From: Mesodorylaimus sp. YZB2_4
Taxonomy: Eukaryota; Nematoda; Enoplea; Dorylaimida; Dorylaimidae
Length of the DNA: 64,000 nt
Reading direction: 5' to 3'
Assembly: GCA_030248295.1 (NCBI GenBank)
Contig: JASANH010001361.1
Location: 62,001-126,000 of the forward strand
Below are positions 1-45,905 of the stretch, piece by piece; position 1 is the first letter of the stretch; each line of letters begins with the position of its first letter. A program made the position numbers and the translations under genes. Under the pieces are notes generated by a model, which had not been told where the DNA came from, ran no database searches, and saw only the letters and a program-made list of their open reading frames with translations.

Positions 1-3000
1 TGACCACGTTCGAGGTGCTGGTTGTGGCGGTAGACAAACTGGCTCGAAAATCGGAAGTTGAAGCGCCGGAGATACTTGTTGGAACAAGGCTCGTGGTAGA
101 CATGTCAGCAGTACTTGTTGTTTGTGTATTAATAGTTGCGGCGGTGGAATTTATTCCTGTGCTGGATGTGCTGATTGTCGACGGGCTCATGATAGACGTC
201 AACGTGCTTGGTGTGCTTGGGCTGCTCGTGGTCGTTGTTTCCATAGTCATAGTCGTACTGCTAGTTGATGAAAGAGTGCTTGTAGTTAAACCGCTGCTTG
301 TACTGGCTGCTGTTGCCGCTGTGTCACTTGTTGTTGTCGCTAAAAAATATCCAGTCGTCTTTGTTAGTTGTCTACTAACATTACTAACTGGCATTATCTA
401 AAACCTGAAGCGAGCGAGCTACAACTTGGCCAATGGCCGTAGTTGCGCTTACTGACTACTGGAAGCGCTTCCTGGCTGATCATATACTGCAGCCAAGGCC
501 ACATGCATTCACCAGGGGCATAATATATCGTGCTTGCCTTTAACTCATCTGCTCGACCAAACAACACCCTTTGAAACAAAACATAACTCCGTTGTGTCCA
601 CATTCAAGGCCTTTCCCAAATATAACTACAAAAATATCCCAAGATTCAGCACGCTGTTTTTTTTTTGTTTTCATGTTGAGCAGAAATAGTAACAGTGACA
701 ATATGAAGCCCCCACAAGGTATCAGAAAAGAGTCGAGTCGAGGGTGCAATGGGCCACATTGCCTTCCCGTTGCTACATATTACTTATTTTGCGTATTTTC
801 TCAAAAAAAGACCCACTGGAGGGAGGCGGGTATTTTCTCTATTGAGGTCCATGAATGGGGGGGGGGGGGGTAAATCGATGTGGGATATATTTGTGGGTGA
901 GCGTATTTTACAGGACAGAACAAAAGCTGCATTTCCAATCGAAAAATACAGTACCTACTCACTTTGTGGGTTAAAGTGGCAATATCCATTTCTGGTCATT
1001 GCTGTTGGCAGATAGATGACGACAGTATTTGGTCTCGAATAAATTAATCCAGTAGTGTTGCATGTGCTGCTATCCACTGGTGGAGGAACGTCGCTGTCAT
1101 GAGAGATGAATGCCTCGCGTATTTGGTTGAACATGGGATTATATCGCCACCACGTGTAGTAGGGTGTGGCAAATTCAGCCGGTGCTGCAAGCCCATAGCC
1201 TATGATTCCGATGAGTGAGTAGTTGGCTGTATCGCTGGATAAACTCTGCATCACATCAGTGCCAACTACAGCGAGGTTACTCGGTGGGTAGTTCTTGATA
1301 TTTTGCATATGATAAATGGGGACTGTTCTGTTCGGAACGTGAACAGTGTATGCGTAGGATAAATCTTCCAAATGTGTCGCATAGCCATATAAGAGAAAAT
1401 GTTGTTTGTTGGTTGATGTGAACCGATGAGTGCATGTGACAACGTCCGTTGATGTCCACTAACAAGTAAGCAAAGGTACTGCAGTATACTTTTCTTATTA
1501 GAAATTTCTGGTTAAAAAATAATATGAAAGAATAAATCGACAATCCCAATTCCAGATTTTCCAATTGATTATATCCTGGGTGACGGGAGGTGAAGGAGTT
1601 AAACAAGTTGCAGTCAGCATGATTCTCGAGTCACTAACGATAAGACTGACAGTGAGTGTGCCCATCAGCGCCCAGCAACCTCATGGTTGAGAAAGAAGAA
1701 ATAACTTACAGTTATTATACCACTTTTGGTCGACAGCAAAGCGCATGGTAATTCGGTGACTGAAAAAAACCAGTACTTTGCCTTGGTTTCCTTTTGTTAA
1801 GCAATGCCTATTGACTACGCGACGACTATACGAAGGGGGTTTCGATACGTTCGTAGCCTGACCAAATTTTAACAAAAAACCGCACAGCGCCACTATTCCT
1901 GACTATTATTTAAAGCAATGTGATCCTCGATGTCGCTACGCTCAAGTACAAGTATCTACAGTACCATAAATCTGATAGTCGTACCTGCTCGAAGGCGAAC
2001 GAGGATTCACAGTAGGGATTTCAGGGGAGCGCAAGGACCCGCAGCTCTAGGAACCAGAAAATAGGCAATGGATTAGTGTTGTACCCTAGACTCTTCTGGC
2101 AGCGATTCAGGTAACGATTTGAGAGATGCAAAAGATTCAAAATAAGGATCTCATCCGTATCACTTACCGTTGCTAGCACTGGTCTCACAAACCGTTTCAG
2201 TCTTCTGCGATAAATACCCGTAGTTGCAATAGTCCATAGTAGTCGAGCTTCGACCTTTGAATCTACACGCAGTTGGTTCCTTCACGATTTTGCCCGCCGC
2301 GATTTCCAAACATCTTGAACCAAGCAGGGAGCAGTTTGCCTCGTCACCAGTATCCATTGAATACAATGGCGCGGTAGCATTCGGACTGTTACTGACATCG
2401 AGCCAGAAGTTATCTTGGTTTTCTTTCCTGTGTCAACGTTAGATCATTGAATTAGTCAGAGTTGTCTGAGCAAGTGTCATTGCTGTATTTGCCGTTTTTC
2501 ATGCTATCTGATGACTGCGCCAGCCAGTCTGCTGGCGGAATTCATTCTGCACGGTGCGCACCTGATAATCTTACAAAACACAATTATACTTTACTGTAAA
2601 ATAAAATGGCCGCTGATTCTGATCACATCGGGCTGCTTTTTAACATGATTCGATCACCGACAAGAACATCATTCCATAACATCGAGATTTTCAGTTTGCT
2701 CCACCTGTCCTGCTTTTGAAGCTGTATCTGATCGGCTGATCAATAGTCCATATGAATAAAACAAGAGCGGCACGTGCCTTTATTACTGCAGGCCAGGGTC
2801 AGATACTGCTACGGCTAGGACCTAGTTCTTCTGAGCAACTGTAGGTTTCGCCTGTCTGACCCTCTCACATCAGTTACTGACTTCTACAGTCTGCCGGTGA
2901 CTGCGACTAGTGCGGCCTATCCATAGTGTGGAGCGTTCAGTCGTACTGTGTATGTCATTCGTATCAGAGGTGGGTATCACAGGGGTAAAGTTTAATGTTG

Positions 3001-3548
3001 TGGTCATTCTGTGCATCTTAGTCGCATGTAGGGGCTCTGGTTTGCTAGCGAGTCAACAGATAGTAGTTGTCGGCAGGACACCGTCAGCAAGGCGATGAGT
3101 GATGCGCACGTGTTATTGGCCCTGCTCTCTGATGAAGGCCCCTACTGCAGCGGCTCTCAATGTAAGTGCAAAGCATACGGCGAGGATCAAGAATCAGTAC
3201 ACAAGCACTAAACGAGGCAGTCTAGCCAGCTGTATAGGACTTACGAGTAGGCGGCCAAAGCGTTGATTTCGTTCAAATCTCTCGCAGCAGGCAACCTTGC
3301 TTCGTATTTCGCGCATTGAGTCCGTGCATCAGCCCATGTATAGGATGACGTAAGTTTCAATATGGTCTTGATTGGAATAATACAGTAATCGCCAGACTGT
3401 GTGTATGTCGACGGACAGTTCGAATATCCTACCGGTACTTGCGAAAGCAGACCTAAAATCAAGCATATACTGTATTAGCTAAACGCGCCGCAAATTTTTG
3501 ACCTTTACCAATAATGCATATTCTGTAGACGGAGGGTCCCAAGGCCAT
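1..3548 (-). CDS. CTLD - pseudo-aspartic-peptidase - mucin protein, 3' end beyond window
   Basis: Six exons with matching phases: 3548-3509, 3452-3245, 2427-2168, 1759-1710, 1458-963 and 339 to past base 1; at least 464 residues. Exon 1 opens with a signal peptide (MALGPSVYRICIIGLLSQ). Exons 2-3 encode a C-type lectin-like domain: CPSTYTQSGDYC, the helix motif TWADARTQC, then DNFWLDV and late cysteines. Exons 4-5 resemble the N-lobe of pepsin-family peptidases: LLSTKSGIITW where DTGSS..LWV is expected, a flap-like FLLYGY, and NYSLIGIIGYGL like the family D-G-I-L-G-L motif. The catalytic Asp is Ser, so I infer no activity. Exon 6 is almost pure Ser/Thr/Ala/Pro and runs off the window. Exon phases at the CTLD match the paralogue at 6477-22016, so a DEG/ENaC C-terminus may follow, but that is unseen. 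The CTLD is well supported; the peptidase likeness is moderate. Confidence 0.6.
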
Positions 3549-6476: not shown

Positions 6477-9400
6477 TTATGCGACAGGTTCTTTCGACTT
6501 AATTATTTTCACTTTTTTCGTTTGGCGGCGGAAGGCAGGGAACACCAATTCCAGTGCAAGAATGAATACTTCAAATACTGTGACCATGCACATGCCATAG
6601 AATAAACCAAGTACAGTGTTCAGTTCAGCCCACACGTCAAGCAGCTGCGTGAAAATGTACCCATCTAGTCGGTAAAATTACAGAAAACACTAGCTTACTG
6701 TAAATGCTGAATGTTCTTCCAAGTTGATTTCCGACAATCGACTGTAGAATACTTGGACAAATGCGAAAGTTTTCCTGGTCACGATTAAAAGTGCCGCGGG
6801 TGCTTAGTCGGACTTCACCTGTGTTAACTTACTCAATATATTCCTCGCAGGTTCCATTGACTGTCAGATTTTGTTTTGCACGATCGCAAAATAATCTCTG
6901 CAAGATACTTTAGTTTTACTCCCGCTCGCTATACAGGTCTACTGTACAGTAGGAAGTCTCAAATCAGAGTTATTTTTACAGTATGCTGTATTTTTTATCT
7001 AAAAGTTATTACTCAGCGAATGTTGAAATTAAGAAGCAAAGGGTTCTTTGGTACAGCTTTTTTTAAAACACCACATTCGATTTTCACAATATCTTCCTTT
7101 GGCCGAAGAAACTGCCACTGCTAGGTTCAGGGGATACATTCTTGTAAGGAACTTAACCGCCCTGTTGACCCCGGCAATTTAACGGGCATACATGGGGAAG
7201 AGTATCCTCATAATAGTAGGTCTGTAATACGACTGGGTCCGTATTACTGGAGGGAGTGACCGGTGGAGCTTTTGCACCACGCCAAAAAACCCAGGGCAGT
7301 CGACTAAGTCCTCCGACCTAGTACATGGCTGAAACGTCACCCTGACGGGTGACGCTCCCAGCTGCCGGCTCCGTGCAGAGTATCGATTGCCAGTCGAGCC
7401 TCTACAGGTCCACTAAGGAAGAACTCTGCGCCAGGAATTACTCCGTTTTAGTAAGAAATGAAAGAATCTCCTTGAAATCAGGCCACCCGAGGAAAAATTT
7501 TAGCATCAAAGCTTACCAAAATCGTATTGTTCTTGTTTATTTTCGACATTGTGACCTCAGCTTGATAAGCCGTATTACTTCAAAGCAAAATAAAATTCGA
7601 GGCTTGCTGTTAAGATTTCGCTCTTCTCACCTGCATGGTTCTTTGCAATCGCAGCTGACTTCTTTCAAGATATCCTCTTCCAAGCAGGTCATCAGGGTTC
7701 CCAGGCAAACCACTAAAAGTGATGGGATTATAACACTTGAGCTGGCAGATGAGCTGAAATGGGCTCACCATCTGACAAGTTGCAATATCGAGCATAATTT
7801 GGCTTGGCGTATTTTGGATCTGCACAATTGCAGTTATCCAGAGCGTATCGCTGATAGCAGTCACGCAGGCAGCCCTAAAAGTTCAGTCAGGGTATAGGCG
7901 CGAGATATAGTCATAAGGGCTGAGCCTACTTCGACTGTGTATACTCCATCGTAGTAGTATTCCAAGCCTTCCTCAATGGCGGTTTGTGCAACGCAGTTCC
8001 TTAGCCGTTTGATATTTCTCTGAAACAAAACAAGATGAAGAAATGCTGCTAACGAAATATGGAATCAGCAGCGCTCGGCTATGATTTCTTGTTACTCGAT
8101 AAAGTGCGATCGATGTTGAAGTTCCGGGGCTGACATAGAAGCCTTCAATTTCAGGAAATGGTGCCTCATTTTGGGGTTGAAGGCTCAAGCGGAAACCAGC
8201 TGACTGCGACATGCATAAATAGTCGTCCTGCATGTTTTGTAAAATCATGTTTAAGCCTAAGCAGATATCGAATATTAGTCAAAGAAACCAGACAAAACAT
8301 ATCATACCATATTTGGGCCCAACATTACGAGATTTCAGAACATCTGATTGTGAGACATCGTAATTGAATGTGAAGCAGTTGCCATATCGGGCTGTCTGGT
8401 CCAGGCGAAATTCCCTGGAAGAGGCACACAGACATTGTCGTGTGCATACGCGCTGTGAACTTCATCCTACCTTTCCATATCGCATGGTCTATGATCGAAG
8501 TAGCATCGACTAAAAGTTTCTTCCTGGGTGACTCCAATGGATCTTTGTATATCCTTTGGCAGTTGGATGTACATGTAAGGCAAAGCCTCTTGAAGTGCAA
8601 GTGCCCGTGCCAGTGGGTCATCTCCAGCAAGCTAAACAATGAGCACACTGCACAGATGCTTTACCATAATCACAATGTTGAGTTACCTCAAAATTTATTT
8701 CCTCAAGAAATACTGGATCGACAATGGGTGAGGTCGTACTTTTTGAAGATGCGGCTGAAACAGGAAACCTTTGTGGCATTTTAAACGCTGGCAAGACAGC
8801 TGCAAGTGGTTACCTGTTCCAGCAACTTGAGTTGATGTTGAAGGCGTCTGGATCAGCGACGGTGTGCTGGTGCTGACTACTGAAGTCATAGTCTCTGATA
8901 GGAAGATGGAGGGAGGGAAGGAGGGGATACGAGTAGGAGTGGGAGTAGATGAAGCGGTCGAGAATGGGTCAGATGTAGAAAGGGGGGATTCCGATTGCAT
9001 GATGATGCTGGTAGTATCAGCTGTTTGTAAAATGGATATGGTCGCTGTTGATGGCACAGCAGCTGTGCTCGTGATCACTGTGAATTGTGTTGTCGCAAAG
9101 CTGCTGCTGCTGCCAGCATGAGTCCCAACTGACAAAGTGGTGGATACTTTAGGAGTAGAGGGAGTGCTGCTGGTTGATGCTATAGTGGTGATTGCGGGGC
9201 TCATGACAATTGTACTTTGCTTGCCAGGGAAGATGGGACTAGTACTTAGATAGGACACGGATCTGCTAGGGGTATCTGTACTTGGAGCCGAGGACATAGT
9301 TGAAGTGGTCATTGTGAAACTGGTGGCCGACTCGCTAAGAGGAGTAGTTACAGTCGGGGTGTCAGGTGAGCTGCTGATTGAAGGAGAAGCAGTAGGACTG

Positions 9401-12400
9401 GTCACACCATTGACATCTGGGGCTGGTGATGAGCTGGCAAGACTACTGGTGGTAGGGTTCTTTAGGGTGGTAGTCAATGTACTACCGGGGATATTCATTG
9501 TTGGAGACGAGCTGAAAGAAGTGATGAGTGTTGCAGGAATCTTTGATCTGGTAGTCGATGCGCTTGGACTGCTTGGAAAAGCAGTTGTGGCGGATGAAGC
9601 GATGGTGCTGGTACTGACTGAAGGGGTAGCTGTAGGACCCACAGTACTGCTGGTCACTGACACGGGAGATGAGCTGGTAGGCGAAGATGAAGGGCCATAT
9701 GTACTAGTAGTAGTTGTACTAGAGCTACTGGGGGAAACCGCTGTGGCAGACGATGACTCGGATGATGACGTGATGGTACTGGTGCTGGTTAAAGCTAAAG
9801 TTGTTTGACGGGTTGTTGTAGTGGTGGCTGTACTTAAAGTGCTGGGAGGAGCCGTCGTGGTTGAAGATGAACTGGACACCGTGGTGCTGGCACTAGTCAA
9901 AGCCGAAGGTGTAGGGGTCTTTATGCTGTTGGTCGCAGTGGTTGGAAGTGAGCTAGTGGCGCTAGGGCTGATGGAAGTCGGCGTCGTAGTTGCTGTGCTG
10001 GGGGATGAGCTAACAGTAGCAGTGCTGCTGGTACTTGGTGAAGTAGATGTGGGGGTGCTTATCAAGGCTGTAGAGGAGGCGCTTGTGCCAAGTAAGGTAG
10101 TCAAAAAAGTTGTGTAACTTGTGGACTGGAGAGAAGTCGGCATCGTTGTGTATTTGGAAGTCGTAATGGATGCAGTGCTTGTTGTTGGACTGCTGGCGGT
10201 GGAGCTTGTTGTAACTGAAGGAAACATTGTAAGCTTGGGTGAGTCTGATAACGTTATAAGAGGTTAAAGACTAGGCATACTTGTTGGAGTCGCAGTTGGC
10301 GTTGTAACAGTAGTCGACGAAGCGGTTGTGCTCGTGGTGCTTGAAGTGGCAGCTGTGCTAGTCGAAGAACTACTTGTCGTACTGGTCGGATCTGTTAAAA
10401 GCCATGCACATTAAGTGGCCGCGAACCACCTTTCAAAAAATGTTGAAGAGGATTTTACGGACAAAGAATTGGACAAGCGCTGAAGCGGAAACTACAAAGG
10501 CCGCTTCCGTATTTAGCAGCATGACGTTTATGAGTCCTGAGATACAATTCGAGATTTATGCAGATATGCAGCAGACATACTCGTAGAAGTTGTAAGAATA
10601 GTTGTACTCGTTGTTGTGACTGGCAATGTACTTGTACTAGTGTTGCAAATGACGACGGTTTTTCAATTTGACTTTGACCATGACTTTGACAAGGATCTCG
10701 AAAAATTTTTTACTTTGACATTGACTTTGACAGGGGTTAAAAATTTTTTGACTTTGACTTTGACTTTGACTTTGACGGGGCAAAAATGCTTAATTTTGAC
10801 ATGGACATTGACTCAAAATTGTCCTTTCGCAAAAATTTCAAAAAGACTCTCTTTTTCCCACCACGTAGCTCGAGCACGCATGCCGCCCCTCCTTTCCACA
10901 GCCATCGCACAAGTCTGGGGCGGAGGTTGGCTACGGCCGTGTCTGTCTGGCTGGACAGGACGACTCCTAATCTCGTTCAGTCTTCCTTTCGGACTAACAT
11001 TGGGCTGGCGTGCTCTGGAGTAAACAGTATTTTTTGAAACACTGAAAATGCACAGGGTTTATCTGGTTATGCCAAGTACAGTGCTCTGAATCGTAGATAC
11101 AGTACTGCTAAATATTTCTGCCAGGAAGGTTAGGCATGCAGTGAGCATAATCGCGCGTCCAAGGAGGTATTCAGCAGGAGCGATCATTATAACTGTTTTG
11201 TGCCATGCTACCGAGTACTTTTTTGTGGAATCTAATAGTTGACTGACTGGACTAATCTTAGCAAGTTTGCGGATAAAATTGTTAGCGGATGCTGACTATG
11301 GAGGTCGGGATACCGATCCTGACATTGAGGCATCGAGATGTTGCATATATATACGCTAAGTACACTCTGATCCATCGCATCATATCTTGCCAGAGGAAGC
11401 AGAAGATATTGGCTCAGTCATCAGCAGACAACAGTTCAGAGGCTGACAACAGTAGCGATAAAGAGGCAACAGCAAGGCTGACCTTGCTGGACGTGTATCA
11501 AAACTGCTAATGTAGTCATTAATTTCACCTTACACGTATGTAATGATTAAAAATTGTCCTAACCGTAAGGAAAAGCTATAAAAAATCTGGATGCCTAAAA
11601 CGCGTGCTTTAATGCGAAATGTAGGCTCATAGGCAAAAAAAAACAGAAAAACGCAAAGAGTCCCAATCCCAGTCCCGGTCCCGATTGGGATTCCCCTGAT
11701 CCAGATCTACCCCTAATGACGACATTTTACTGTGCAGGTCACTGGAGTGGAGAAATGGCACAAATAAAATATTGTGGGGCTGCAGCGCTATGAGACTTCC
11801 CTGAATCAGTCTGACCTGCAGATGCATCAAAGAAGTATCGGCATACAACCAGTCTTCGAATAAACTGGCACGTTGGTCTGTTCATCATGATACAGTATGC
11901 AGAATCTTATTTTTGACGTGAGTCCGGGCGTGGGTCTCAGTGAAAAGAAAGAGCGTCTCCTTTCCTGGAAATTCTTCAACTTCCCTGAGCTTCCTGTTGT
12001 CTGTCCTTGATTGAGTCAGGTAACTGCATGGATTGCTTCTTAAACTTTCAAACTGAAGAGCTTGAGTAGAAGGTTGTTTTGTTCAAAAAGGAAAGCCTAG
12101 GGTCAAACACTGTCTACATTGGAATTCTTTTTCATATTACCATAACACTGGGTGGACCATCTTGCTTCACTAATCCTGTTGGCCCTTTCCCTCACACACA
12201 TAATGTTTGGGCCCGTTGGTTTTGGTCCGTTTTGGCATGTGGTTTTGGTGCTTATCTGAATGCATTTATTGGCGCAGGAAAAAGTAAAACTCTGTCTTCG
12301 CAAAAAGATTCTGTGAAACTGAAACAAAACCCGCCTTACTCTAACATATATACAGTACAGTTATCACAAACTGTAACAAATCTTCTCAAAACTGTGAGGA

Positions 12401-15400
12401 AGTGGCTCAACATGTTTTGAAACGACATGAGAACAAACGATTTGAAACGAGATACAGAAATTGGTAGGGAAAACCTTACTCGTAAACTCTTGGTCTTGGC
12501 TAATGGATTTGACTAATGCATGCGCAAAATGTCAAAATTTTTTTGACTTCTCGCAAGATTTTTGACTTTGACTTTGACATTGACAGGGGCCCACAAAAAA
12601 TTTTTGACTTTGACTGGGGCCAAAAATTTTTTTGACATCGATATTGACTTTAACGAAATTTTGAAAACATACGATTTTGACAGGATTTTGACTTTGACGT
12701 CAATTGCAACACTAACTTGTACCTGTGCTAGTCGAAGAGCTAGTTGTCGAAATAGTCAGAGCTAAAAACCCGTACGTATAAAATGGCCGCCAGGGACTTT
12801 TTATGAAAATAAGTTTAAGACGGCGTTACGGAAGCGCGGAAACGATAAAGGCGCTTATGTTTAGCGGCGTAATATTTATTTGTCTGAGAGAGATAAGAGA
12901 TTCATTCAGCTATGCAGTGGACGTACTTGTAGAAGTTGTTGTAGTGGTTGTGCTCGTGGTTGTTGTGACTGGCAATGTACTTGTGCTTGTGCTAATCGTA
13001 GAGCTAGTTGTCGTATTGGTCGGGGCTGCAAGAAATATGTACATCGTAGTGGCGAAAAATAATTTTTTAACAACGCATCAGCAGGCACGGTAGTGCCTGC
13101 TTAGACCAGCCAACCAGACGCCTAATGCTAAAGGACCATTTTCACCGACTAATAACTCGAGAACGATTTGACGAGAATTTTTGATTTTTTGCACACATAG
13201 CAGAATCGGCCGAATCTACAATCGTGCCAATTTTTATCAAAATCCGTCCGGCTATTGTCGAATTCCAGGATAGGCGATTTCTTGTTCAGGGGGGAGAAGA
13301 CGAGGAGGAGGAGGAGGAGGAGGAGGATAAACATCAGCCTAGAGCAACAACCAGAGGTCGTACAGGTGTAAATATTAGTTTTTCTGAAAGCTTGCATCTT
13401 CAGAATCTGCCTTTTGGCATTCGTTTTTTGAACGCTTTAGTTTCGAAAAGGTTATTCCAGAAAATAATCACTTTTTTGGCTTTTTCAACCCGTCGCTTGT
13501 CGAGTACTCAACAGATTTTGATAAAAATTGACGTGGCAGCGGATCTGACCTATCTTGCAAAGCGTGCGAAAAATAAACTTTTTTGGTGAAATCATTCTTG
13601 AGTTATTGACTACCGAAAGTAGCTGGCTCTGGTGTTTCTGTTTTTTTCATTTTCGGCGCGCAGCTTAGAAACATCAACTGAACGGGTTGAGGTGCAGCGC
13701 TATTGATTGGCTAGGCTCACTTAGCGCGCTTTCACGAAGATGGGTTTGGTGTATATACACCAAACCCATCTTCGTAATTTATTACCAGCAAATTCTTTGG
13801 TGTATATACACCAATAAATTTGCTGGTGATAAATTGAGAATTTGTGAACGAATATAAATGATGTGGAAAGAGATTCCATGGTCAGGACATGTTTCATTAG
13901 ATGTGGAGGTAATATTGCTGAGGAAAATAGGAGCTAAAAATAACTTATAAAACTTGCGGATCCTAAGTATTCAGTTTCAGCTTCTGATGGAATACTCTGA
14001 GGATATAGAACTTAAGACCACTCGAGCATGAGCTAGTCCTTACGAATTAGAAATCCTTACGAATGAGCTTTATTGTTTTTCATGCCGCCTGTATATCTGA
14101 GTACATATGCGAAAAAATGCGCATTTCATGAGCAGGCACGGGTGAGAGTTTCTGACTATGAAATGGTCGATCGATCTGTAGGCGGTCTTTACGAGTAATT
14201 TCATGGGCGCGGGTTAACGTTCCGCTCTATGTTTCTGTTTTAAGAGGTTTGGAAGAAGGTGTATGACAGTCAAGTCGCTCAATTCTCTCAGTTGTAGGAA
14301 CAAGTGTTTTGGGCCAAACTATAGTTTCTAGCAAAAAACGAAAAACGGTTTTATTATTTCCAAAAAAGTCTGTTATGACAGACTCAAAACTTTTAGGCCA
14401 GCCTATGCACACAGTGGAACCAGGGCTTAGGATGGCTGGTCTACTCGGCCACAAGAAAAAGGGAAAGTGCCCCAACAGGCAGTGCACACACAGCTTGTAA
14501 TTGCTCGCACACATATACTGTATGTATGTATGCATTGATATGTCAGCATCCAAGCCACAAAGCTTGTGTTCGGTGCATGTACTGCTGCTGTTCAGACAGG
14601 CTCCCCAAAGGCAGCTGTGCTGTTCCACACAATTAACCTGCACACTGCATGCTAAAGCTGTAGCGCTGGGAGCAAAGTGATATTGCTTATCGTTACATGC
14701 CTAAGCCTCGATGAACACTGTAAAATCTTTCCCCTTCTTCCAACTTTATGTTCATGCTCATGGTTTATCATATCAGTAATGACACACTCTAGGATAAAAG
14801 GGCACATGACACAAAATGATTTACCTGGCCGCGAGTCGAACACTCCCTAGTAATGATACGAGCAAGCGCTACTACGCATAGCCCGAGAGTTAGACACTCC
14901 TAGCCCACTTTGAGGACCACGAGCACAGGATCGTGTGGCCCTCTACCAGGATCAGTCGTCCTGTTGATATTCATGCAGAAAAAGCAGCTTCTGCTCAGAC
15001 ATTTTTCCTAAACCGTGGTTGCGCTTAGCAGTGGCCGAGTAGACCAGCCATTCTAAGCCCTGGTTTCACTCTGTGCATTGGCTGGTCTAAAAGTTTTGAG
15101 TCTGTCATAACAGACTTTTTTGGAAATAATTATATGAAGTTCCAGTACCTGTACCCTTTACGGGTGCGTTGAAAGAAGTGTCACAAGCTAGCCACCAAAC
15201 TGGCTTTTCAATGTTTAGCGGGGCCCCCCCCCGCCCGGCAACCTCCCGTTTCACACCATCCTCCCCTCCCCACATACCAAAGCACTTACCTCCTTTTCAT
15301 ACGAAGCACATACCTTTACCCAATTAAAAAAACAAACACACTACATAAAGCGACACAATTTATACTTTTCTCACACTATAACCAAGCCTCTATTCTTTCA

Positions 15401-18400
15401 AGATTCATGATTTTTTCTGCATCGGGCTCGTGGTAAATTTTTTATCAGGGAAAAACACAAAAACCCTAAATACTTATAACTTCTCCCTTGTGCCCGCGAG
15501 GGGACCCCAAAACATTCAATATTCTCACTGTCCCCCCCTCCCCCCACCCACATACCCCCCCTCCATCCCCACAACACTCAAAAATATCTACCTTCCCCCC
15601 CTACACCACCTCCACTTCTTTGTTGTGACAGCTCTAATATCCCCTCTCTCTCTTCTAAAAATAAGAAAAATATCAAAAAATCAAGAATCCTTTTTCTTTT
15701 TCCCGCTGCACTCATAAATCCACCTCCCCGCGCACCCCCCCCCCCCCCCCTCCATCCCCCAAAATAAAAATACTTATCGCTGGTTCTCCTACGCCCCCTC
15801 TCCCACCACCACCAACCCCCACACACGCTCAATCAAGAAAAATTAAATCCCAAAACCCCTCACGCAGCCCCACCTACCAACAGATCAACGAGCGGAGGAG
15901 CGGAGGACGGATGAAAAAAATACACGGGACCACGTTTTGATAGAAGATATATGTAAGTTGTAGTTGGCAGGCTGTTCGAATCGGACAACTGATACTGCTG
16001 AAGGTCTTTAATATTGGCCGACGTGAAATGCATTGAACATCGGGCTGGCCTAGTAGTATATACCATCATGATGGAATTTGATGTAACGCTGTGCTAAAAA
16101 ACGATATAGAACTAGATGGATGCAGGGCAATATTTCCAGTAATTATACAGTAAGTGATCCGAGAAAATTATTCGAGATTTCTCGATAATTCATATTATTT
16201 TGTTCATCTTTAGTTGCTTCAGAAACATTCCCATGTAGGAATCAATTTGACTAGTTTGTTTTCTTGGTCGTGTAAGAGACGACACCCTGCCTTACCTGCC
16301 TATTGTCGGACTTGCCAGTCTTAATTGGCGCACAATCAACTCGCGTGGCTAAAAGAAATACTGCCAGATTCTTACGAGGGAACATTTCCGACTCTCTTTC
16401 GCAAATCAAAACAAACCTTTGCATGAAAGCAGTATACAGGCAGGGATGAATTTTGATGCTGATAATTTTTCCCAATGGCCCCTGGTTGACCAGAAAATGA
16501 GCACATGTTCGAGCACTCACACCGCTTACTCCCGAGTTTTCTGCCGAACTAGTTGAGCGCGCGCCCATGAATCGTGATTCCCCCAGTTGTGATAGATGCC
16601 TTCAGTGGTTACTCTATTTGCATAGGACATCTTGTGTGCACAGAGGCACAGACTATTTGTCTCCCTCCCTAGTCAGGGCCGAGCGAGGCCGAGAGGCCGA
16701 GCTGACTCGTTTTTCTAACATGCGAGGGATTGGTATGACTAGTCCTTGGACCCGGGCATCGCCTATATAAAGGCCCTGCTCCTTGCCTAGGGGATCAGTC
16801 AGTCTAGATCAGTATTCCTCGACGACCCGACGTTTGCAGCTGGCTCCTTTGATCCTGCGTGAGTCCCCTTGGTCCGGCGTAGTGGACGCTGACAATAAAC
16901 TATTCCGATACCTGGGCTGCGTGGCTTGATTCGAACCTTACACCACAACGCAGTTGGTTGAGTGTGTTAGCACGAGAACCTGACTGTTTCACAGTTCAAC
17001 TCTTACTCGAGGCGTAATTATTTTAGCTTTTTCTCCTCCTACCGTGGTCGAACATGTGGTCATTTTCTGGTCAACCAGGGGTCACTGGGAAAAATTGACA
17101 GCATGAAAATTCATCCCTGCCTGTGTACTGCTTTCATGCAAAGTTTTGTTTTGATTTGCGAGAGACAGTCGGGAGTGTTCTCTCGGCACTATTTTACTTT
17201 CATGACAATGTTTGCAACGAGGGGGGAAGACACGGCTAACAGAAATCGAAAACAAGGAGAAATGGCGAATGTGGGTAAAGTAAAAAAGGGCCGTTCCCTT
17301 GTTAGAGCTTCAACAAATTAACCCAAATGTCCTTCATCCGGCAATAAGACCTATGTTCAAGGTATTCAACTTTTTATGCTTTGAATTTTTATGAGAAATT
17401 GGCTCATCACAATATGCTACTTAAAGGAAAATATTTAAAAATATCTGGGAAGTCTCATCGAGAATTATTGGCTCATCATTTATTTATCACTGGACACTCT
17501 GTTCACAGATTAGTTTGTGTGGTTTATCAGGTGTATGAAGAGCCATAAAAATTCCAAAAAGCAGTTATATGAAGGGATATCACAAAATACGAGTATAACC
17601 TGTTCTCTTAGAGAATATACACACCCTTCGCGGTACCGGCTTGTGAACTGCTTCGCCTGGAAACTATCAACTTCAAATGACTCAACTCGTTGATATTGTT
17701 GTAAACTAGCAGCCTTATGATATATCCAGTACCAGTATCCTCCAAACCCTAGTTAGATAACTTACCGTTCGATGCGCTGACTGTACAAACTGGACGATTC
17801 ATGCCATTAGGATAGTCTGCAGAATCGCATTTGCCAGCGTCTTTAAACTTGCAGTATATAGTTTTTTGTGTTGTGTCGAGCTGAGAGCATATCGCTGAGT
17901 CCCAGAAAGGCTCGTTGTTGCAGTTCACATCTTCACCAGTGTCTATGCGAAATAACGAAGTGTTTTGAGCCGTGTTTACGATGCCAACGATCGTGTCGTG
18001 ACTATGTGCTCTGAATAGGAACAAAAACACTGTATGTTACTGCAGTGAAACAAAGTTCGAATGTCAGTATTAATTGACAAGGCAACGGAGCATAATTTTT
18101 TCCAAAATCGACTTCGCTGATTAGAATATGTAGTTGACCTCGGATAATTGCAACCGCTCGGGACGTCAAAAAGAATTGCAATGAGCTGAAGTTGCAATTA
18201 TCCGATATTGGAATTACGCGAAGTTCAGATGGATTTTTGAAAAAAAGTTGCAAATACGCGAAGTTTTCTATGCTATGCGCACATAAGTCACTACCAATCT
18301 TTATTAAGAGAGGGTTTCTGACAGACTCGACCCGTGGCTGGCCAGTCGACTTTTTTGACCCTCCATTTTTTATTTGCTCTATCGGAAGTACTTACAAAAC

Positions 18401-21400
18401 TGATTGTCTTGGCCGAAGTAAAATTTTTCTAATGTGTCTATATATGGTAATATAGGCACATTAGACTATAGGCACACTTTAGAGGTGAAAAATGGTCACT
18501 TTTGGTCGAAAAATCAAAACTTGCGTATTTTTTTCGGCCAGAACACTTTTTGAAAGATAAAAATGACCGTCACAGTTCCAGGAATCCGAATCTTTTTTAA
18601 AATTAGCCTAGATATAATCGTTAAGGACATATTCAACAAAACCCGTTGGTGATCAGCGATTATCAGGCACATTATCGATTATGGGTGAATTATAAAAGCC
18701 AAGTCTCCTTGTTTTCTCCATTGAAATAGTAGCCTAGGGTCAGCACATTATAAAACAACCTAACTTTCCGCACTGCGGACCTCAGTTGTTGTGCACATGG
18801 CCGATAGCTGCGCCCTATCTCGCCAATTTCAGCTAAATGATCTACAATCCTAGCTTCTGTTCGCTCGCACTGATCACTAATAGCCGATCTTGTAGCCCTT
18901 GAAAAGAGCTTTCGAATGCTTTTTACGCGTCCAATTTTGTTCTTTTTTACCCAAGATATTGAAGAAAACTCCAATTCGGAAAGGAGTGCCCGCGAGACTC
19001 GATTTTTAAAATTTCCCGCCTATGCACCGCTTATGACATTAAAGTCATACGCTGCGGCTGCGTACTCTAAAAATCGCGAGAAAATATATATATCGCTCAC
19101 TTTTTCAGTATGTGTCAGTCTAATTTTGCACTGAAGAATCTGTCTTTTATTAAAAAAAGAAAAGTGTTAAATTTTCTGGCGATTTCCAAAGTACTACTTT
19201 GAAAGTAGCCAGCCAACCCCGCTCTTATGTCATAAGCGGCGCGCTCGCGGGAAATTCAAAAATAGCGTCACGCAGGCACTTATTGCCGAATTGGAGTTTT
19301 TTAATATCTCGGGTCAAAATGAAAAAAATTTGTCGGGGAAAAAAGCATTTGAAAGCTCTTCTTAAGGGGTGCAAGATAGGCCATTACTGATCAGCGCAAA
19401 TGATTACCAAGTGAGATGATCGATCAGGATTAGCTAAAATTGCCGAAATGGGATGCAGTTATCGGCCATGTGCACAATGACTGTGGTCCGAAGTGCGAAA
19501 ATTAGGGTGGTTATATGATGTCCTGACTATACATAGGCTACTATTCCAGTGAAATAAACAGGGAGACATGGCTTTTATAATTCGCCCATAATCGATTATG
19601 TGCCTGATCACGGCTAATCACGAACGGTTTTTGTTGAATATCTCATTAACGGTTATAGCTAGGCTAATTTTTAAAAAAGATTCGGATTCCTTTAAATGTA
19701 GCGGTCGTTTTTCTATTTAAAAGTATTCTAGGCCAAAGAAAGCAAGTTATGATTTTTTGACCAAAAAGCGACCATTTTGTACCTTTACAGTGCTATATTT
19801 CCATATATAGGCATATTAGAAAAAATTTTACTTTGGCCAAGACAATCAGTTTTGTAAGTACTTTCGATAGAGCATATAAAAAAGGGGGTCAAAGAAGTCT
19901 ACTGGCCAGCCCTGGGTCGAGTCTCTCAGAAACCCTCTCTTAATGCTTTCAAAAACGTTTTGTCAGGGAAACATTTTCTTAGTCACATAGTTTTGACTAA
20001 TCGAGTACAACAGAAACCTCTTCTCTTCCTCACCAATCTTACAGCAAAAACAGTTGGCAATTTTAAAAGCAGCATATGCAGACAACTAACTGCCTAGGCC
20101 AAAGGGCGGGAAGTCTGAATTTGTTGTCGAAGTCTAGTTAACCGTAATTAACATTGTAAGAGAAAATTGCAATTATGCGTAGTAAACTCTGCCTTGGGGT
20201 GATGTCAGAATATTGAAAAATGAGGTTGAAATGCAGGTTCAGCCCACGTTTTATTTTGGGTAGCCAAAATTCTGAACCTCCAGCGTGTGCAAAAAGTTCG
20301 AAATTCTTTCTTACAAAGGCGGGACGTGGGAAATAAAAATTTCGACTTCTTAAATAATTGACAAAGGGGTCTAAAATTCTGGCTGCCCCACTGAAAAGAA
20401 GGTGCTGAATCTGAATATCATACTCTTTTTTCAATATTTCGACATCGATTCCAGAGTGTGCTTCTCTTTAACTAATCCGCCGGGATCATGTGCTATCTGC
20501 GATTAGGAACACAACCTGAAATTTCAGGTCTATTTTCGGCTGTCTTTGATTTCATATCGATGGCGTCTGAAAAACAGCTTCTCTTGAAAGCAATGATGCG
20601 GGAAATCGATGATAGCTAAACAAGACTAGAATCGACCGTTGATCCAGATCTTTAATTACTAATATCTTTCAAGAGATTAATATCGATATCTACAGTATTT
20701 CTGTATCTATATTTTTTTGTCGTTATCTTCATCTGCAGTAATCTTTTGACGGTTAAGATATTAGTAATAAATCAATATTATCTTTTCCTGGAGCTAAAAA
20801 TTGAACTCAAAATATCTCGGTTTTTGATTGTGATGGCTATTTTTTATCATGCGACGAAATTTTGATGAGATATCTTCAAACTTACCAATTTTTTCTACAA
20901 AACACTTGGTTATGCGAGTTGTAGCTATTTTGCTGTGCACTAGTACGGCATGAAGGGTTTTTGCTCCCGCGCCTGCCCCTACCATCACTCCCGCTTCCCG
21001 CTGGCGACCTTCTCTGTTAGGCATTCCCGGCCACTATCGCCCGCGGCAGACGCCTTACCCACTCGGCCACGAGCGAATCCTCCCCCACTGTCATAACCTG
21101 GGCCCGCTGAAATCAAATGACCCAGGGTAACAAAAGAGGATTTTAGCACTGATGCAGTTTTTGAAGCTTTATGGGTCGGACCGTGTGCTTCTCTTATGGT
21201 GCAACAGACATGATACAGGGCAATAAGCCAGGCTGTGAGACGACCAGCTGACGGCAGCTTTTCTATACTGTATTCACAGCGATGCTAGTGCATTTTTTGT
21301 AGTTTTGAGCAATTTTTGAACGCACAAAACAAAAGTGTGAATAAAAGTGTTCTTTTCTCCCAGAAAGGCCTCAGACCCAAATCGACTAATTTATTAATTC

Positions 21401-22016
21401 AGCTTTTGCAAAGCGGAAACACGGAAACCAGAAGCCGCTAAGCTGTTATCCCCAAGTTTTAACTAAGGGCCTAGCAGACGCTCTCTCGGTAAGTACTATC
21501 TGTTTTCTTTGGGAGTGTACTCGTGGCCTGTGCGGTAACGTGGAGGGCGTGTATATTCTCAAAGAAAAAAGGTTTTACAATGAGGTGATTTAAGGTAGAA
21601 ACTTCTTCCTGTGACAGCAGTGCGCATTGGCACTGCCAAGTTTTAGCCCGATCATATGTTTAAACAATATGTATTTTTCAATATTCAAAAAAGAGTACGT
21701 ACTTAACGAAGTCAACCATAGCTTTATGTGATACGTTGTCCCTCACGACTGGTATAGTAGCTTCAAGCATCGCGCATAGCTTCCGGGCCGTAGGAAAATT
21801 CACATCGGGCGGCGATGATAAAGTCAGCTGTAAGAATGGCGATGTCACATACGCAAAACAGTAATTTCCATGATGTTTGTAACCGGTCGGACATTGAAGA
21901 TTGGCATATTCCAGCGCAGAAAAGAACACTAAAATTCAAAAGTTTAGACTTGCATGTCGCTCACTCATTATGCTCTTACCAAATACACGCAACAGAATCA
22001 TGCCAGACACCCGCAT
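6477..22016 (-). CDS. CTLD - mucin stalk - DEG/ENaC fusion protein lacking TM1
   Basis: Exons: 22016-21980, 21928-21703, 18010-17766, 13025-12927, 12761-12723, 10391-10281, 10214-8814, 8754-8687, 8631-8471, 8414-8308, 8256-8096, 8019-7930, 7874-7769, 7712-7631, 6907-6833, 6774-6699, 6644-6477; 3252 nt, 1083 residues, all phases compatible. Order: signal peptide (MRVSGMILLRVFVFF), CTLD (CPTGYKHHGNYCF, FPTARKLC), about 550 residues of Ser/Thr mucin, then DEG/ENaC ectodomain with FSRCYFDHRPCD, YGNCFTFNYD, GPKYG, GCLRDCYQRYALDNCNCADP, ARYCNLSD and SCDCKEPC, then a membrane helix (LGLFYGMCMVTVFEVFILAL) and a basic tail ending KEPVA. No N-terminal cytosolic domain or TM1 was found. The G-x-S filter of TM2 reads G-M-C, which argues against a normal channel. 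The join into 6907-6833 uses a weak acceptor, so an exon may be missing there. I infer a single-pass surface glycoprotein or decoy subunit. Confidence 0.68.
7325..7400. repeat. ACATCAACCCG-type hairpin repeat copy
   Basis: GGCTGAAACGTCACC, a short loop and GGGTGACGCTCCCAGC form a stem, followed by GAGTATCGATTGCC. This matches copies elsewhere in the window. It lies in the long intron between the last two thumb exons of the DEG/ENaC part. Confidence 0.5.
10581..10636 (-). pseudogene. Relict half of a mucin exon
   Basis: Encodes Thr/Ser-rich sequence (LPVTTTSTTILTTST) ending at a good donor in phase 1, like the intact exon at 13025-12927. Its upstream half lies at 12761-12723, on the other side of the TA-flanked element. 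The only nearby acceptor is in the wrong phase, so I left it out of the mature transcript. Confidence 0.5.
10640..12712. mobile_element. TA-flanked DNA element with 15-bp terminal inverted repeats
   Basis: Left end GTGTTGCAAATGACG and right end CGTCAATTGCAACAC are inverted repeats matching at 14 of 15 positions, each flanked by TA. That is the target duplication used by Tc1/mariner-type elements. Both ends carry TTTGAC short tandem repeats in the same orientation (10660-10815 and 12555-12700). No transposase is recognisable, so it is non-autonomous. It sits inside what was a mucin exon of the fusion gene. Confidence 0.6.
13734..13775. repeat. Perfect 42-bp palindrome
   Basis: The 21-base arms are exact reverse complements with no loop, centred on GGTGTATATACACC. 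The arm starts ACGAAGATGGG. It directly abuts a second palindrome with the same centre. Both lie in the 4.7-kb intron of the fusion gene. Confidence 0.85.
13776..13835. repeat. Near-perfect 60-bp palindrome with the same core
   Basis: The outer arms AATTTAT and ACCAGCAAATT pair with AAATTTGCTGGT and ATAAATT around the same centre, TGGTGTATATACACCA. Small mismatches and one-base offsets interrupt the arms. Confidence 0.7.
14356..15133. repeat. Inverted repeat, arms of about 100 bp
   Basis: Left arm about 14356-14455 and right arm about 15031-15133 are reverse complements, including AGTCTGTTATGACAGACTC and the block ending GGTCTACTCGGCCAC. The loop holds tRNA-like sequence near 14830-14940 (CGCGAGTCGAACACTCC). 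Non-autonomous foldback element in an intron. Confidence 0.6.
15220..15860. repeat. C-rich, G-poor low-complexity tract
   Basis: About 640 bp in which the plus strand is rich in C, T and A and almost free of G, with many CCCC runs and a 16-C run at 15735-15750. No coding pattern is seen. It lies in the intron of the fusion gene. Confidence 0.6.
16310..17260. repeat. Inverted repeat with LTR-like insert in its loop
   Basis: Left arm about 16310-16515 and right arm about 17042-17260 are imperfect reverse complements. Examples are GGTTGACCAGAAAATGAGCA against TCATTTTCTGGTCAACC, and TTTGCATGAAAGC against GCTTTCATGCAAA. Between them lie an LTR-like segment (16588-16942) and a degenerate tRNA-like sequence (about 16945-17030). 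Confidence 0.5.
16588..16942 (+). mobile_element. Possible solo LTR
   Basis: Starts TGTGATAG and ends CCTTACA. A TATA box (TATATAA, 16764-16770) is followed 120 bases later by a polyadenylation signal (AATAAA, 16894-16899), the U3-R-U5 order of an LTR. No internal region or second LTR is present and no clean target duplication was found, so the call is tentative. Confidence 0.35.
18305..19943. mobile_element. Foldback element, arms of about 700 bp
   Basis: The left arm starts TTAAGAGAGGGTTTCTGA and the right arm ends CAGAAACCCTCTCTTAA. The arms read as imperfect reverse complements almost to the centre near 19120. Shared blocks include CTGGCCAG and AAGTACTTACAAAACTGATT with its complement. 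No ORF resembles a transposase. The element is in the intron between the two CTLD exons and could fold into a large RNA hairpin when transcribed. Confidence 0.65.
20195..20470. repeat. Foldback MITE-like repeat, copy 1
   Basis: GATGTCAGAATATTGAAAAA near the left end is mirrored by TTTTTTCAATATTTCGACATC near the right end, and AAATTTCGACTTCTTAAATA lies in the middle. The same ends and middle recur at 56235-56540. Confidence 0.5.
21010..21085 (-). repeat. tRNA-derived SINE head, family 2
   Basis: On the minus strand it reads CGTGGCCGAGTGGGTAAGGC, a clear A box, followed by GTCTGCCGCGGGC. It belongs to the family seen at 39.1, 43.1, 51.3 and 52.4 kb. Located in the intron between CTLD exons. 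Confidence 0.45.
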
Positions 22017-26496: not shown

Positions 26497-29400
26497 ATGG
26501 CTGGCGAACTCAGAGTAATTAGTCCCGACCGCCGTGTTTCGTTGACCAATATTAGACGTCTGGACAGTAACATCGATGCAGAAGCGGCAGAAAAAGCCAG
26601 GAATGCCACAAATCATCGCGCCTCTTTCTCCGACCCTCCTCCGCCCAGCGAGTTCACATCAATTGCGAAACGAAGTTCCATCGACAAATCTCTGCGAGAT
26701 ATTGAAATTGATGGATGGCGTTCATTATTCAAAGCCAGTTCATTGCCAGGTCGTATATTTTGGGCTCTAATATCAGTTTTATGCCTTGTATTATTGGTCT
26801 ACGAAGTGGTGGCCGTGTTTGTGAATTATTTCACGCGACCATTGAGCACGAGCTATCAAATTGTGACCAACGAAAGTATGGTTTTCCCAAACATTTACAT
26901 CTGTCCTATGAATAGCATTAATTGGACAGCTATCGATCAGGATAAAACTTTATTACGGTACGCTTTCCAGTTAAAACAAGTTTACGGAATCATCGACTAC
27001 GAAGGCAACATCGGCAAAGCTTCAGCCAGGGCATTCGCATTCAATTTTACTCTTTCAGAAATCCGTGAAAAATTTATGAGTTTCGGCTATGACGCGCAAG
27101 AATTCTTGGTGGCTTGTGGTTTCATTCAAAGTTTCACCAGTTATCTTCGTTGTAGCGAACTGATCAAGGATCGAGTGGATGGCCTGTACGGGAAGTGCTA
27201 TCTGCTCTCCTTAGGTCCCGACCACACGCAAACTACGCCAGGTCGTGGGCTGACAATCACGTTCAATCTGAATAAACATCTTTATCCCACTATTCCCGAA
27301 TTCGCCCCCGTCACTGAGGGGGTGGCCTTTTACGTGGGCGACGAGTTGGTGTATTTGAGACCAGGCAGTCGGTACAATATCGAGATCCGAGCCGAGCACC
27401 TGAAGTTTATCAACGTGCAAAGAGGCACCGTAGAATACCGTTGCGTGGGCGATGGGGAGAACTACGTGGACTATTCCATCATCAATCGAGATAGGCTCGA
27501 TTATAATCAGGTGAGACAGAGGACAGTGTAAAGTACATAGATGTAAACCTCATACATCGCAGTCCCCAGTCGCAACACAACAGGGCTTGGTGTAACCCTC
27601 GTGCCTGGCTGGCCATGGCGAGTGGCAGAGAGTGATCGGGAAATGTCAACCTCTCCGGTTGATGTTTCAGACGTACAGTAGGTATAGACCATTTCACAGG
27701 CTTCGTACATTGTGAAATTTATATATCATTCTGCTAGGCGCTTATGACAATTTTACATAGACAAAACTTTGTGATTTTAAAGCCTAGTTGCTTTGACAGT
27801 AATTTCCTGACACTTTTCCTGATTTACGGCTTTAATTTTTTTATTTCAAAAAGTAGCCAGAAGTTGTTGCTATTCTGTTTAAATTAGCTTTCAACGGCGG
27901 GACGCGCGCAAGCTTTGAAATGAGGGATTTTTCAACTATGTGAAACTGTCATGAGCGTCTTGCAGCGAGAAATTCAAATTTTGCGTTGTTTGAGATCTGT
28001 GGAATGGTCTATAGTCGCAAAACTTGTCTGCTCTAGTCGGAGTTTTTGTCCCGCCGAGTTCGGTCAGCCGCATTTCCTCTTGCGCCTGTCAAGCTTGGCT
28101 ACATTGGGATAGCGTGCGGGCGGGTACAGGCATATTGAGGTGCCGTTAACCCCCCTAAGAACCAGTAATTCCTACTCCCACTCCCCCCGTGGAACATCTA
28201 TTTTCCTGCAGGAAAAAATGGTATAGCCCAGCAACTCTGCTGTCTTGCCATGGAGAACAGGGTAAACGTGAGAAGCTGCTCTTGAGTGAATTCCACATAT
28301 TGCTAGGGAGTCTGAAACGATTTTAGAAATGAAATCATTTTATCTTTCGAAGAACTTGCAGACCAGAATGCGCAGTAAATTTTTGTTTCCCCTCAAATGC
28401 GTAGTTTTCCCGCCTGGGACCCGTTTGAAATAATAACTATCCTTGGACGATTACCCTTTGAGCGTTTGCGTGTACCCGAGGGGACCATGGTCATAGCGCA
28501 GCATATCGTCTCGTGGAAGCCATGCTGACGGAGAGGATGGTCAATGAAATAAGGTTGGAGCATTTAAATAATTCAACTCCTTTTTCTAAGCTTTGCAATA
28601 TCTCAAAGTTCGAAAGAAAGTATTCAAAGTTTCAAAGAGCTTCGAAAGTACTTCACTTCAGAATGTGCAGTACAGTAGGTGTGGCGACAAAGACTTATGT
28701 GGACATGGGCTGTATTCGGTACTCCAGTGGTTTTCCTCTTGATAAAACACTCCCATGACCGCTCGATACTCACATCCAGACGAGGCAGAAACCTGTCGGG
28801 TTGATGTTTCTGGTTCTAATGACAAGGAGGCCTGCCTGTTCCGCTCCCAGCGTATCCTGGCTATCCAGGCTGCAACATAGAATTGAGCACGGCTAACAGA
28901 AAACAAATCCCAACTATTGCTTATACTCACGATCAGTGTACTTATTTCAGCGCGACTGCATTCGGGATTGCTACGTTCGCGAGTTGTGGTTCGTGTGCAA
29001 ATGTCTTCCGATCATGGATCCTGCAGATGTCAAGCCGGAAATACTGAATGGCACTGCACCAGCCATGATCTGCGATGCTTCTCGTATGCGAGCGTGTGTT
29101 CGACCGCAAGTTGACAACGACTCCACAGTTCGAGAGCGGGTTGAACATTGTAAGTCGAGATGCTATCCGCCCTGTGATTTTACCCGACATCAATTAAAGG
29201 TCAGCGACGCGCCTTTGCACGCTGTGGGATATAAAAGAATTCTGGATCAGATGAACACGACCATTGATAATTTCATCGATGTCTCCATGGCCTACCCTGC
29301 GCTCGATTACACTGAATTTCAACAAGATATTTCGAAAAGTTTTGACGAACTCGTGTCCGATCTCGGTGGCCAAATCGGACTGTGGATGGGTGCCAGCATG

Positions 29401-29529
29401 GTCACCATTATACAAATACCATTCCTACTCACCACTATGTGCATGTATAAATCGTTCAGCAAATACGGTGCTCTGAGAGGGGTCGTGGCCAAGCAAGCCA
29501 GAAAATTAAATCTACCGAATGCGGCATAA
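26497..29529 (+). CDS. DEG/ENaC (degenerin/ASIC-type) sodium channel subunit
   Basis: Two exons, 26497-27510 and 28951-29529, joined in phase 0; 530 residues. Family knowledge: these proteins form trimeric, often amiloride-sensitive cation channels gated by ligand, acid or stretch. Visible features: a cytosolic N-terminus of about 85 residues, TM1 (ISVLCLVLLVYEVVAVFVNY), post-TM1 FPNIYICPMNS, a cysteine-rich ectodomain with YGKCYLL, RDCIRDCYVRELWFVCKC and CKSRCYPPCD, then TM2 with GLWMGASMVTIIQI containing the intact G-A-S selectivity tract. The conserved pre-TM1 His-Gly motif reads Asp-Gly (EIDGW). The acidic residue usual after the filter is Gln. The promoter should lie in the empty stretch upstream. 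An AATAAA signal is at 29612-29617, 83 bases after the stop. Confidence 0.88.
27575..27690. repeat. ACATCAACCCG-type hairpin repeat copy
   Basis: Contains CTGGCTGGCCATGGCGAG, GAAATGTCAACC and GGTTGATGTTTCAGAC, a reverse-orientation copy of the dispersed family. It lies in the DEG/ENaC intron (27511-28950). A partial copy is also at 28785-28812 (AGAAACCTGTCGGGTTGATG). Confidence 0.5.
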
Positions 29530-32700: not shown

Positions 32701-32848
32701 CTGAGCGAGTGATAAGAGCACATTTCTCGCCACACGAGTAGCCATTATTGACCAGTGCAGGGCCCAGAAAACGGGACGTGCACGTCTCCACATTGCCTGC
32801 ACCAATTCCAAATAAGGATATAAGAAACACAAAAATGTAGAGCGCCAT
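29772..32848 (-). CDS. Secreted berberine-bridge-type FAD-linked oxidase
   Basis: Two exons, 32848-31803 and 30279-29772, phase-matched; 517 residues. I chose the Met at 32848 because it begins a signal peptide (MALYIFVFLISLFGIGAG); a Met 14 codons upstream (32890) is also in frame. Family knowledge: PCMH-fold FAD oxidases with a C-terminal BBE domain and bicovalently bound FAD. Both attachment sites are visible: His in RSGAHCYEDVW, and Cys in PAGSCLDLGVGGHVAGGG. The BBE domain ends YERLRRVKKEWDPLNIFHH, matching the family N-Y-x-R-L...D-P-x-N-x-F-x-x motif. Length is normal and no frame is broken, so the enzyme should be active. Substrate unknown; carbohydrates or alcohols are usual in the family. 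Such genes are common in plants, fungi and bacteria, so acquisition by transfer is possible. Confidence 0.88.
31052..31100. repeat. Short tandem duplication in oxidase intron
   Basis: GGACACTATGTACTGTGT is repeated twice in direct tandem within the 1.5-kb intron. Nothing else is recognised in this intron. Confidence 0.6.
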
Positions 32849-38091: not shown

Positions 38092-42567
<4,476 letters not shown>

Positions 42568-45873: not shown

Positions 45874-45905
45874 TGACACTCTTGAAGATTCTAGTTATAT
45901 TTTCC

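Follow-up and report, generated by a model that had tools for sequence, protein, structure and literature searches.

Gene model and order of parts

We analyzed a 64,000-nucleotide stretch of the genome of the dorylaimid nematode Mesodorylaimus sp. YZB2_4 (assembly GCA_030248295.1, contig JASANH010001361.1, positions 62,001 to 126,000 of the forward strand). This whole stretch is called the window below, and positions are counted from its first letter. Its minus strand carries a gene at 22016..6477 whose product has, in this order, a signal-peptide-like start, a C-type lectin-like domain (CTLD), a Ser/Thr mucin domain, a DEG/ENaC ectodomain, and one C-terminal membrane helix. That helix aligns with the second transmembrane helix (TM2) of DEG/ENaC channels. 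A tandem paralogue of the CTLD-mucin part lies to one side of the gene, and a complete DEG/ENaC gene lies on the plus strand to the other.

The gene was rebuilt from splice sites and reading frame. An open frame runs through 18 modelled exons, one of which (12761..12723, 39 nt) is optional, and the product without the optional exon has 1087 residues. Every modelled internal border is GT/AG and in phase. An initial annotation of this DNA had proposed the same order of parts, which the sequence supports, and its gene ends (22016 and 6477), its exons 10214-8814 and 8754-8687, and its intron 17766-13025 were all reproduced. It had counted 17 exons and 1084 codons; we also find 17 exons, to which the optional exon 5 is added, and the length is revised to the figure given above. 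The modelled exons are as follows.

Exon 1, 21980..22016 (minus strand): start codon and onset of the signal-peptide-like stretch (MRVSGMILLRVF), with a hydrophobic stretch at residues 3-21
Exon 2, 21703..21928 (minus strand): remainder of the signal-peptide-like stretch and first half of the CTLD (CPTGYKHHGNYCF...)
Exon 3, 17766..18010 (minus strand): second half of the CTLD, ending SASN/G at a gtaagt donor, phase 1
Exon 4, 12927..13025 (minus strand): Ser/Thr mucin cassette, phase 1-1
Exon 5, 12723..12761 (minus strand): short mucin cassette, optional, phase 1-1
Exon 6, 10281..10391 (minus strand): mucin cassette, phase 1-1
Exon 7, 8814..10214 (minus strand): main mucin exon, 1401 nt
Exon 8, 8687..8754 (minus strand): junction exon, with the mucin tail AASSKSTTSPIVDP and then FLEEINFE
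Exon 9, 8471..8631 (minus strand): DEG/ENaC finger, as far as SRCYFDHRPC
Exon 10, 8308..8414 (minus strand): DEG/ENaC, RYGNCFTFN
Exon 11, 8096..8256 (minus strand): DEG/ENaC palm, EGFYVSPGTSTSI
Exon 12, 7930..8019 (minus strand): DEG/ENaC
Exon 13, 7769..7874 (minus strand): DEG/ENaC thumb, GCLRDCYQRYALDNCNC
Exon 14, 7631..7712 (minus strand): DEG/ENaC, SCDCKEPC
Exon 15, 7517..7577 (minus strand): DEG/ENaC, NTAYQAEVTMSKI
Exon 16, 6833..6897 (minus strand): DEG/ENaC
Exon 17, 6699..6774 (minus strand): last palm strand, KTFAFVQVFYSRLSEINLEEHSAFT
Exon 18, 6477..6644 (minus strand): TM2 (NTVLGLFYGMC), basic tail, and stop

At the 3' end, borders at 6751/6664 for exons 17 and 18 were discarded because they would leave a 34-bp intron. 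Exons 6774..6699 and 6644..6477 instead give introns of 58 and 54 bp, in line with the family. The spliced end, KTFAFVQVFYSRLSEINLEEHSAFT-LLDVWAELNTVLGLFYGMCMVTVFEVF, can be aligned to both ENaC beta and ASIC1 as far as TM2 and across it. The hydrophobic stretches that score above 1.2 in the model start at residues 1049 (2.16), 3 (1.64), and 617 (1.39, within the mucin). The protein sequences analyzed for the CTLD, the DEG/ENaC part, the plus-strand gene, and the oxidoreductase described further below match the exons of the window in every letter.

Two large introns of the gene contain inverted-repeat pairs (13151..19944), 7 of 12 with arms of 66-144 nt that are 71-95% complementary. These are probably elements like miniature inverted-repeat transposable elements.

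The mucin stalk and its junction with the DEG/ENaC module

The mucin domain has 549 residues, with 28% Ser, 30% Thr (58% for the two together), 10% Pro, and no Cys. Exons 4, 5, and 6 are related repeats, as is a degraded copy at 10589-10642. The main mucin exon, exon 7, ends in phase 1, and exon 8 (68 nt) reads AASSKSTTSPIVDPVFLEEINFE. It opens with AASSKSTTSP in the mucin frame, which means that Ser/Thr-rich sequence crosses the splice ahead of the DEG/ENaC part. The introns between exons 6 and 7, 7 and 8, and 8 and 9 are 66, 59, and 55 bp long. Because exon 8 begins in the mucin frame and is set among introns of these sizes, the sequence makes a strong case for the join between mucin and DEG/ENaC module. 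The initial annotation had placed this junction at 8814/8754, and both the phases and the mucin-frame start of exon 8 agree with it. If the intron between exons 7 and 8 is retained, the frame stops at 8695. As a speculation, such an isoform would be a secreted CTLD-mucin.

The DEG/ENaC module and its pore motif

The initial annotation had proposed profile searches of the model against Pfam ASC (PF00858) and Lectin_C (PF00059). The DEG/ENaC part matched ASC at 6.1e-54, but only along profile positions 141-454 of 455. The gene model has nothing to match the stretch before position 141, which comprises the first transmembrane helix (TM1) and the FPAVTIC first palm strand. A PDB sequence search with the DEG/ENaC part returned 29 distinct sequences to E 0.1, with ENaC beta at the top (4.4e-32) and ASIC1 at 1e-27. 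There are 18 cysteines in this part, one of them in TM2. Each of the 13 ectodomain cysteines that follow the FPAVTLC cysteine in ASIC1 has a counterpart here, as counted by eye in the ASIC1 alignment with a disulfide list as reference. When 256 residues of the DEG/ENaC part were used to search viral contigs, there was one pattern match and there were no relatives.

A second DEG/ENaC gene stands head-to-head with the CTLD-mucin-DEG/ENaC gene, on the plus strand at 26497..29529. It is complete, with two exons and 530 residues, and matches ASC at 6e-55 (positions 6-452). Its closest relative in the PDB is ASIC5 (1.2e-23). TM1, FPNIYIC, and GAS are present in it, and the HG motif is absent. Where the two genes can be aligned, their identity is about 20%, which rules out the DEG/ENaC part of the minus-strand gene as a recent copy of this neighbour.

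The TM2 pore motif of the minus-strand gene is NTVLGLFYGMC, compared with GGQxGLFxGAS in the family and GGQIGLWMGAS in the plus-strand gene. Its GxS (GAS) belt is thus replaced by GMC, in exon 18. As reported in PMC10424705, deletion of the GAS belt abolished the currents of DEL-9 and UNC-105h, and the belt of chicken ASIC1a interacts with the N-terminal HG motif, stabilizing the pore. The loss of TM1 together with an altered belt would fit a release of the module from pore function.

Search for a first transmembrane helix

The initial annotation had itself pointed out that the fusion would fall if an internal start with a TM1 exon had been missed. Introns from exon 7 onward are 51-76 bp long, apart from one of 619 bp between exons 15 and 16. 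Introns this short (59 and 55 bp at the mucin junction) rule out a TM1 exon within the DEG/ENaC part or between it and the mucin, and the 619-bp intron was rejected as a TM1 site because it sits 3' of most of the ectodomain. Therefore, TM1 could lie only 5' of the mucin.

Motif scans of the minus strand beyond 8600 gave nine loose FPAVTIC-like matches, none of which stands behind a membrane helix (judged by eye). A hydropathy scan of the same strand found seven stretches between 22016 and 10391, and none is followed by an FPAVTIC-like motif. Pfam searches of the three minus frames found no families at 24.8-14.8 kb, where the CTLD exons likewise went unseen and beyond which the minus strand at 24.8-33 kb lay outside the scan. 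At 15-6 kb, they found ASC only. The pattern S-[ST]-x-HG had no match on the minus strand, and the gene model has no N-terminal cytoplasmic segment.

We also built a profile from the N-termini of ASIC5 and ASIC1 and ran it against 2173 open reading frames (ORFs) of at least 20 residues from both strands. The plus-strand DEG/ENaC gene, which served as the positive control, was found at 8.4e-8. Among the best 15 matches, the next was at 0.21, on the plus strand, and the best on the minus strand was at 0.91, in an ORF overlapping exon 10. In a power test, a TM1-only piece and a first-strand-only piece of the control each ranked second (0.0053 and 0.039). These scans found no internal TM1 exon in the window, although one split mid-helix could escape them (see Discussion).

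The CTLD and a tandem paralogue

The spliced CTLD of the gene scores 21.3 bits against Lectin_C (4.8e-4), short of the 22.6-bit cut-off. In raw frames, its two exons have no Pfam match. When the domain was searched alone against the PDB, there was no convincing relative (best match, 0.67). A tblastn search inside the window found a second CTLD copy at 3.4 kb, which belongs to a tandem paralogue.

Tandem paralogue, 1..3548 (minus strand): exons 3548..3509, 3452..3245, 2427..2168, 1364 (or 1322)..963, and 339..1

The paralogue encodes a signal-peptide-like start, a CTLD, an extra domain of about 120-134 residues, and a mucin, and is cut by the window edge. Its phases are those of the gene: the first exon ends in phase 1, the two CTLD exons run from phase 1 to 2 and from 2 to 1, and SASN/G is again found at a gtaagt donor. 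The extra-domain exon (acceptor uncertain, 1364 or 1322) is followed by a phase-1 mucin exon, within which the window ends. The extra domain has no Pfam match and no PDB match, and its single-sequence fold has a mean predicted local distance difference test score (pLDDT) of 38.4, too low for use.

The two CTLDs are 28% identical. That of the paralogue passes the Lectin_C cut-off at 31.8 bits, whereas that of the gene narrowly misses it. The best PDB match of the paralogue CTLD alone is a C-type lectin, at 0.024. A joint profile of the two CTLDs had eight PDB matches to E 1, mostly C-type-lectin-like, with Klrb1b at the top (0.0021). The join between CTLD and mucin in the gene is supported by its phases and by the tandem paralogue, which shows the same CTLD-to-mucin order.

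EPN or QPD and WND are the sugar and Ca2+ motifs of C-type lectins. None of the three strings (EPN, QPD, and WND) occurs in the CTLD of the gene, and none was seen by eye in that of the paralogue. Because all are absent, sugar binding is not predicted, and a protein ligand would be as likely as a sugar.

Other genes and possible transposon remains in the window

Elsewhere in the window, the following were noticed.

32848..31799 (minus strand), with further exons likely towards 29800: a flavin adenine dinucleotide (FAD)-binding oxidoreductase (Pfam FAD_binding_4, 6.7e-24) that begins with a hydrophobic stretch and is reminiscent of berberine-bridge enzymes, which are unusual in animals
About 35000..41200 (minus strand): genes for RUVBL (TIP49) and for an AAA protein that ends in Vps4_C
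43436..59521 (plus strand): MED19, a sub-threshold match to a CHCH domain, and DUF4457 exons of the katanin-interacting protein type
33353..33580 (plus strand) and 48940..49116 (minus strand): matches to Myb/SANT and DDE_Tnp_4, possibly remains of Harbinger-type transposons

Discussion

We read the gene as a type I membrane mucin with an N-terminally truncated DEG/ENaC module, rather than as a self-sufficient channel, with a probability of about 0.58. This reading takes the order of parts, the frame, the apparent lack of a TM1 in the window, and the changed pore motif from the sequence, and from these we infer a topology, glycosylation, origin, lack of conduction, and docking that would be as follows. 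The signal peptide would send the N-terminus outside. A divergent CTLD would then stand at the tip of a Ser/Thr stalk of about 550 residues, which should be O-glycosylated and extended. This stalk would run into a cysteine-rich DEG/ENaC module (the remainder of the finger, the palm, and the thumb), followed by TM2 and a basic cytoplasmic tail. A CTLD-mucin gene appears to have captured this module, taking it from the 3' portion of a gene for a DEG/ENaC protein. Because it has neither TM1 nor the first palm strand and its GAS belt is altered, the module should form no sodium pore alone, and the channel that the initial annotation implied is hard to reconcile with the same changes. The most likely role would be that of a membrane-anchored adhesion or sensing protein that presents its CTLD far from the membrane, and docking via the palm and thumb onto full-length DEG/ENaC subunits is possible. 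More tentatively, and at somewhat less than even odds, the DEG/ENaC ectodomain and TM2 would have been freed from forming a pore and exapted to serve next to the membrane in a lectin-tipped mucin. Such a non-channel receptor of DEG/ENaC origin might dock on full-length channel subunits and use its glycosylated arm to gate them.

Several observations weigh against a truncated, nonconducting module on a single CTLD-mucin chain. The signal-peptide cleavage site is weak by eye. The join between CTLD and mucin spans a 4.7-kb intron, and exon 3 read through unspliced meets a stop at 17749. In a codon-bias test (529 training codons; exon 18, which holds the stop, left unscored), exons 4, 6, 8, and 15 fell below zero in their own frame and exon 7 scored 0.002, and another open frame outscored the own frame in exons 4 and 6. 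The test is uninformative and partly contrary, and it gives no support for exons 4, 6, 7, and 8. The cysteine equivalent to ASIC1 C194 is retained even in the absence of its partner strand, a hint that this strand may come from elsewhere. In the search for that strand and TM1, a three-sequence profile that included the plus-strand gene had the same plus-strand ORF as its next best match, now at 0.15. A piece with just the initial 28 residues of the control stretch ranked only 21st (E 12), which means that the profile could overlook a TM1 split mid-helix. The absence of the HG motif from the gene says little, because the full-length plus-strand neighbour is without it too. Finally, the published belt change is a deletion, whereas GMC is a substitution. 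ENaC mutants with cysteine in place of serine at the GAS-belt site reportedly conduct.

In a refinement of the membrane-mucin reading, the protein would co-assemble with full-length DEG/ENaC subunits and pull on or gate them through its CTLD-mucin arm. The palm and thumb elements that serve as subunit contacts are kept, and there is a full-length DEG/ENaC gene at a distance of 4.5 kb, in head-to-head orientation. However, TM1 also takes part in trimer packing, and the low identity of that neighbour means that it is no recent copy. Polycystin-1, which has an unrelated membrane part and no mucin stalk like that of this gene, carries a CTLD on its long ectodomain and belongs to a channel complex; it is an analogy in how it works only. 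According to PMC7728438, an N-terminal fragment of polycystin-1 is an agonist that activates the PC-1/PC-2 channel, and the activation is reported to depend on the CTL and TOP domains. We consider such co-assembly conceivable but rather unlikely.

It is improbable that the locus holds two genes, a secreted CTLD protein (exons 1 to 3, ending at the 17749 stop) and a separate mucin-DEG/ENaC gene with a first exon of its own. That stop lies just 17 bases past exon 3, an AATAAA (1 of 11 in the spans scanned) is found at 17484, and the intervening intron is long. However, the gtaagt donor after SASN/G is kept in both paralogues, and the paralogue too has a phase-1 mucin exon, after one extra-domain exon. 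Furthermore, only four of six candidate signal-peptide starts at 17.7-10.3 kb have any phase-1 donor, and none has a gtaag-like one.

Slightly more doubtful is a true DEG/ENaC subunit in which an unseen TM1/palm exon precedes the CTLD, making the CTLD and mucin a giant finger insert between TM1 and TM2. The 13 matched ASIC1 cysteines (a count by eye), including the one with a partner on the missing strand, would suit such a subunit, and the finger tolerates insertions in ENaC. Against this, neither TM1 nor an FPAVTIC-like strand was found upstream on the minus strand (window-wide motif, hydropathy, and profile scans; Pfam at 24.8-14.8 kb), where 26497..29529 is occupied by the complete plus-strand gene. 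Exon 1, like the first exon of the paralogue, resembles a signal-peptide exon that contains a start codon, and the GAS belt is changed. A decaying gene or an assembly artefact is very improbable, because the degraded intronic mucin cassette at about 10589-10642 and the changed pore motif are set against modelled exons that are open and in phase, structural cysteines that are kept, and intron sizes that are uniform across the joint.

A membrane mucin with a truncated DEG/ENaC module would combine traits of several known systems. With DEG/ENaC channels (ENaC beta and ASIC1), the gene shares the finger-to-TM2 ectodomain, the arrangement of cysteines, and the palm motif EGFYVSPGT, but it is without TM1 and the first palm strand, has GMC for GAS, and adds a CTLD and a mucin. 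The nearest named domain fusion is that of EGAS-1 to -4, which also have an extra extracellular domain fused to ASC. They carry EGF, whereas the gene here carries a CTLD and mucin, and Pfam scans of raw minus frames and of the joined CTLD and DEG/ENaC parts found no EGF family. In PMC10424705, EGAS proteins are listed among many members that gave no current above water-injected controls in oocytes. With membrane-anchored mucins, the gene shares a signal peptide, a long Ser/Thr domain, a single transmembrane helix, and a short basic tail. Its membrane-proximal domain appears to be derived from DEG/ENaC rather than being SEA or EGF, the domains typical of membrane mucins. Among the titles and abstract openings listed in literature searches, there was no CTLD-mucin-DEG/ENaC protein, a negative that speaks weakly for novelty.

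In current views, extracellular partners encoded by other genes pull on DEG/ENaC mechanosensors. The gene described here puts a lectin-like tip, a mucin arm, and a DEG/ENaC ectodomain into a single chain from which the first membrane helix is missing. It would be a natural test of whether DEG/ENaC ectodomains are used apart from conduction and whether half-subunits may regulate whole ones.

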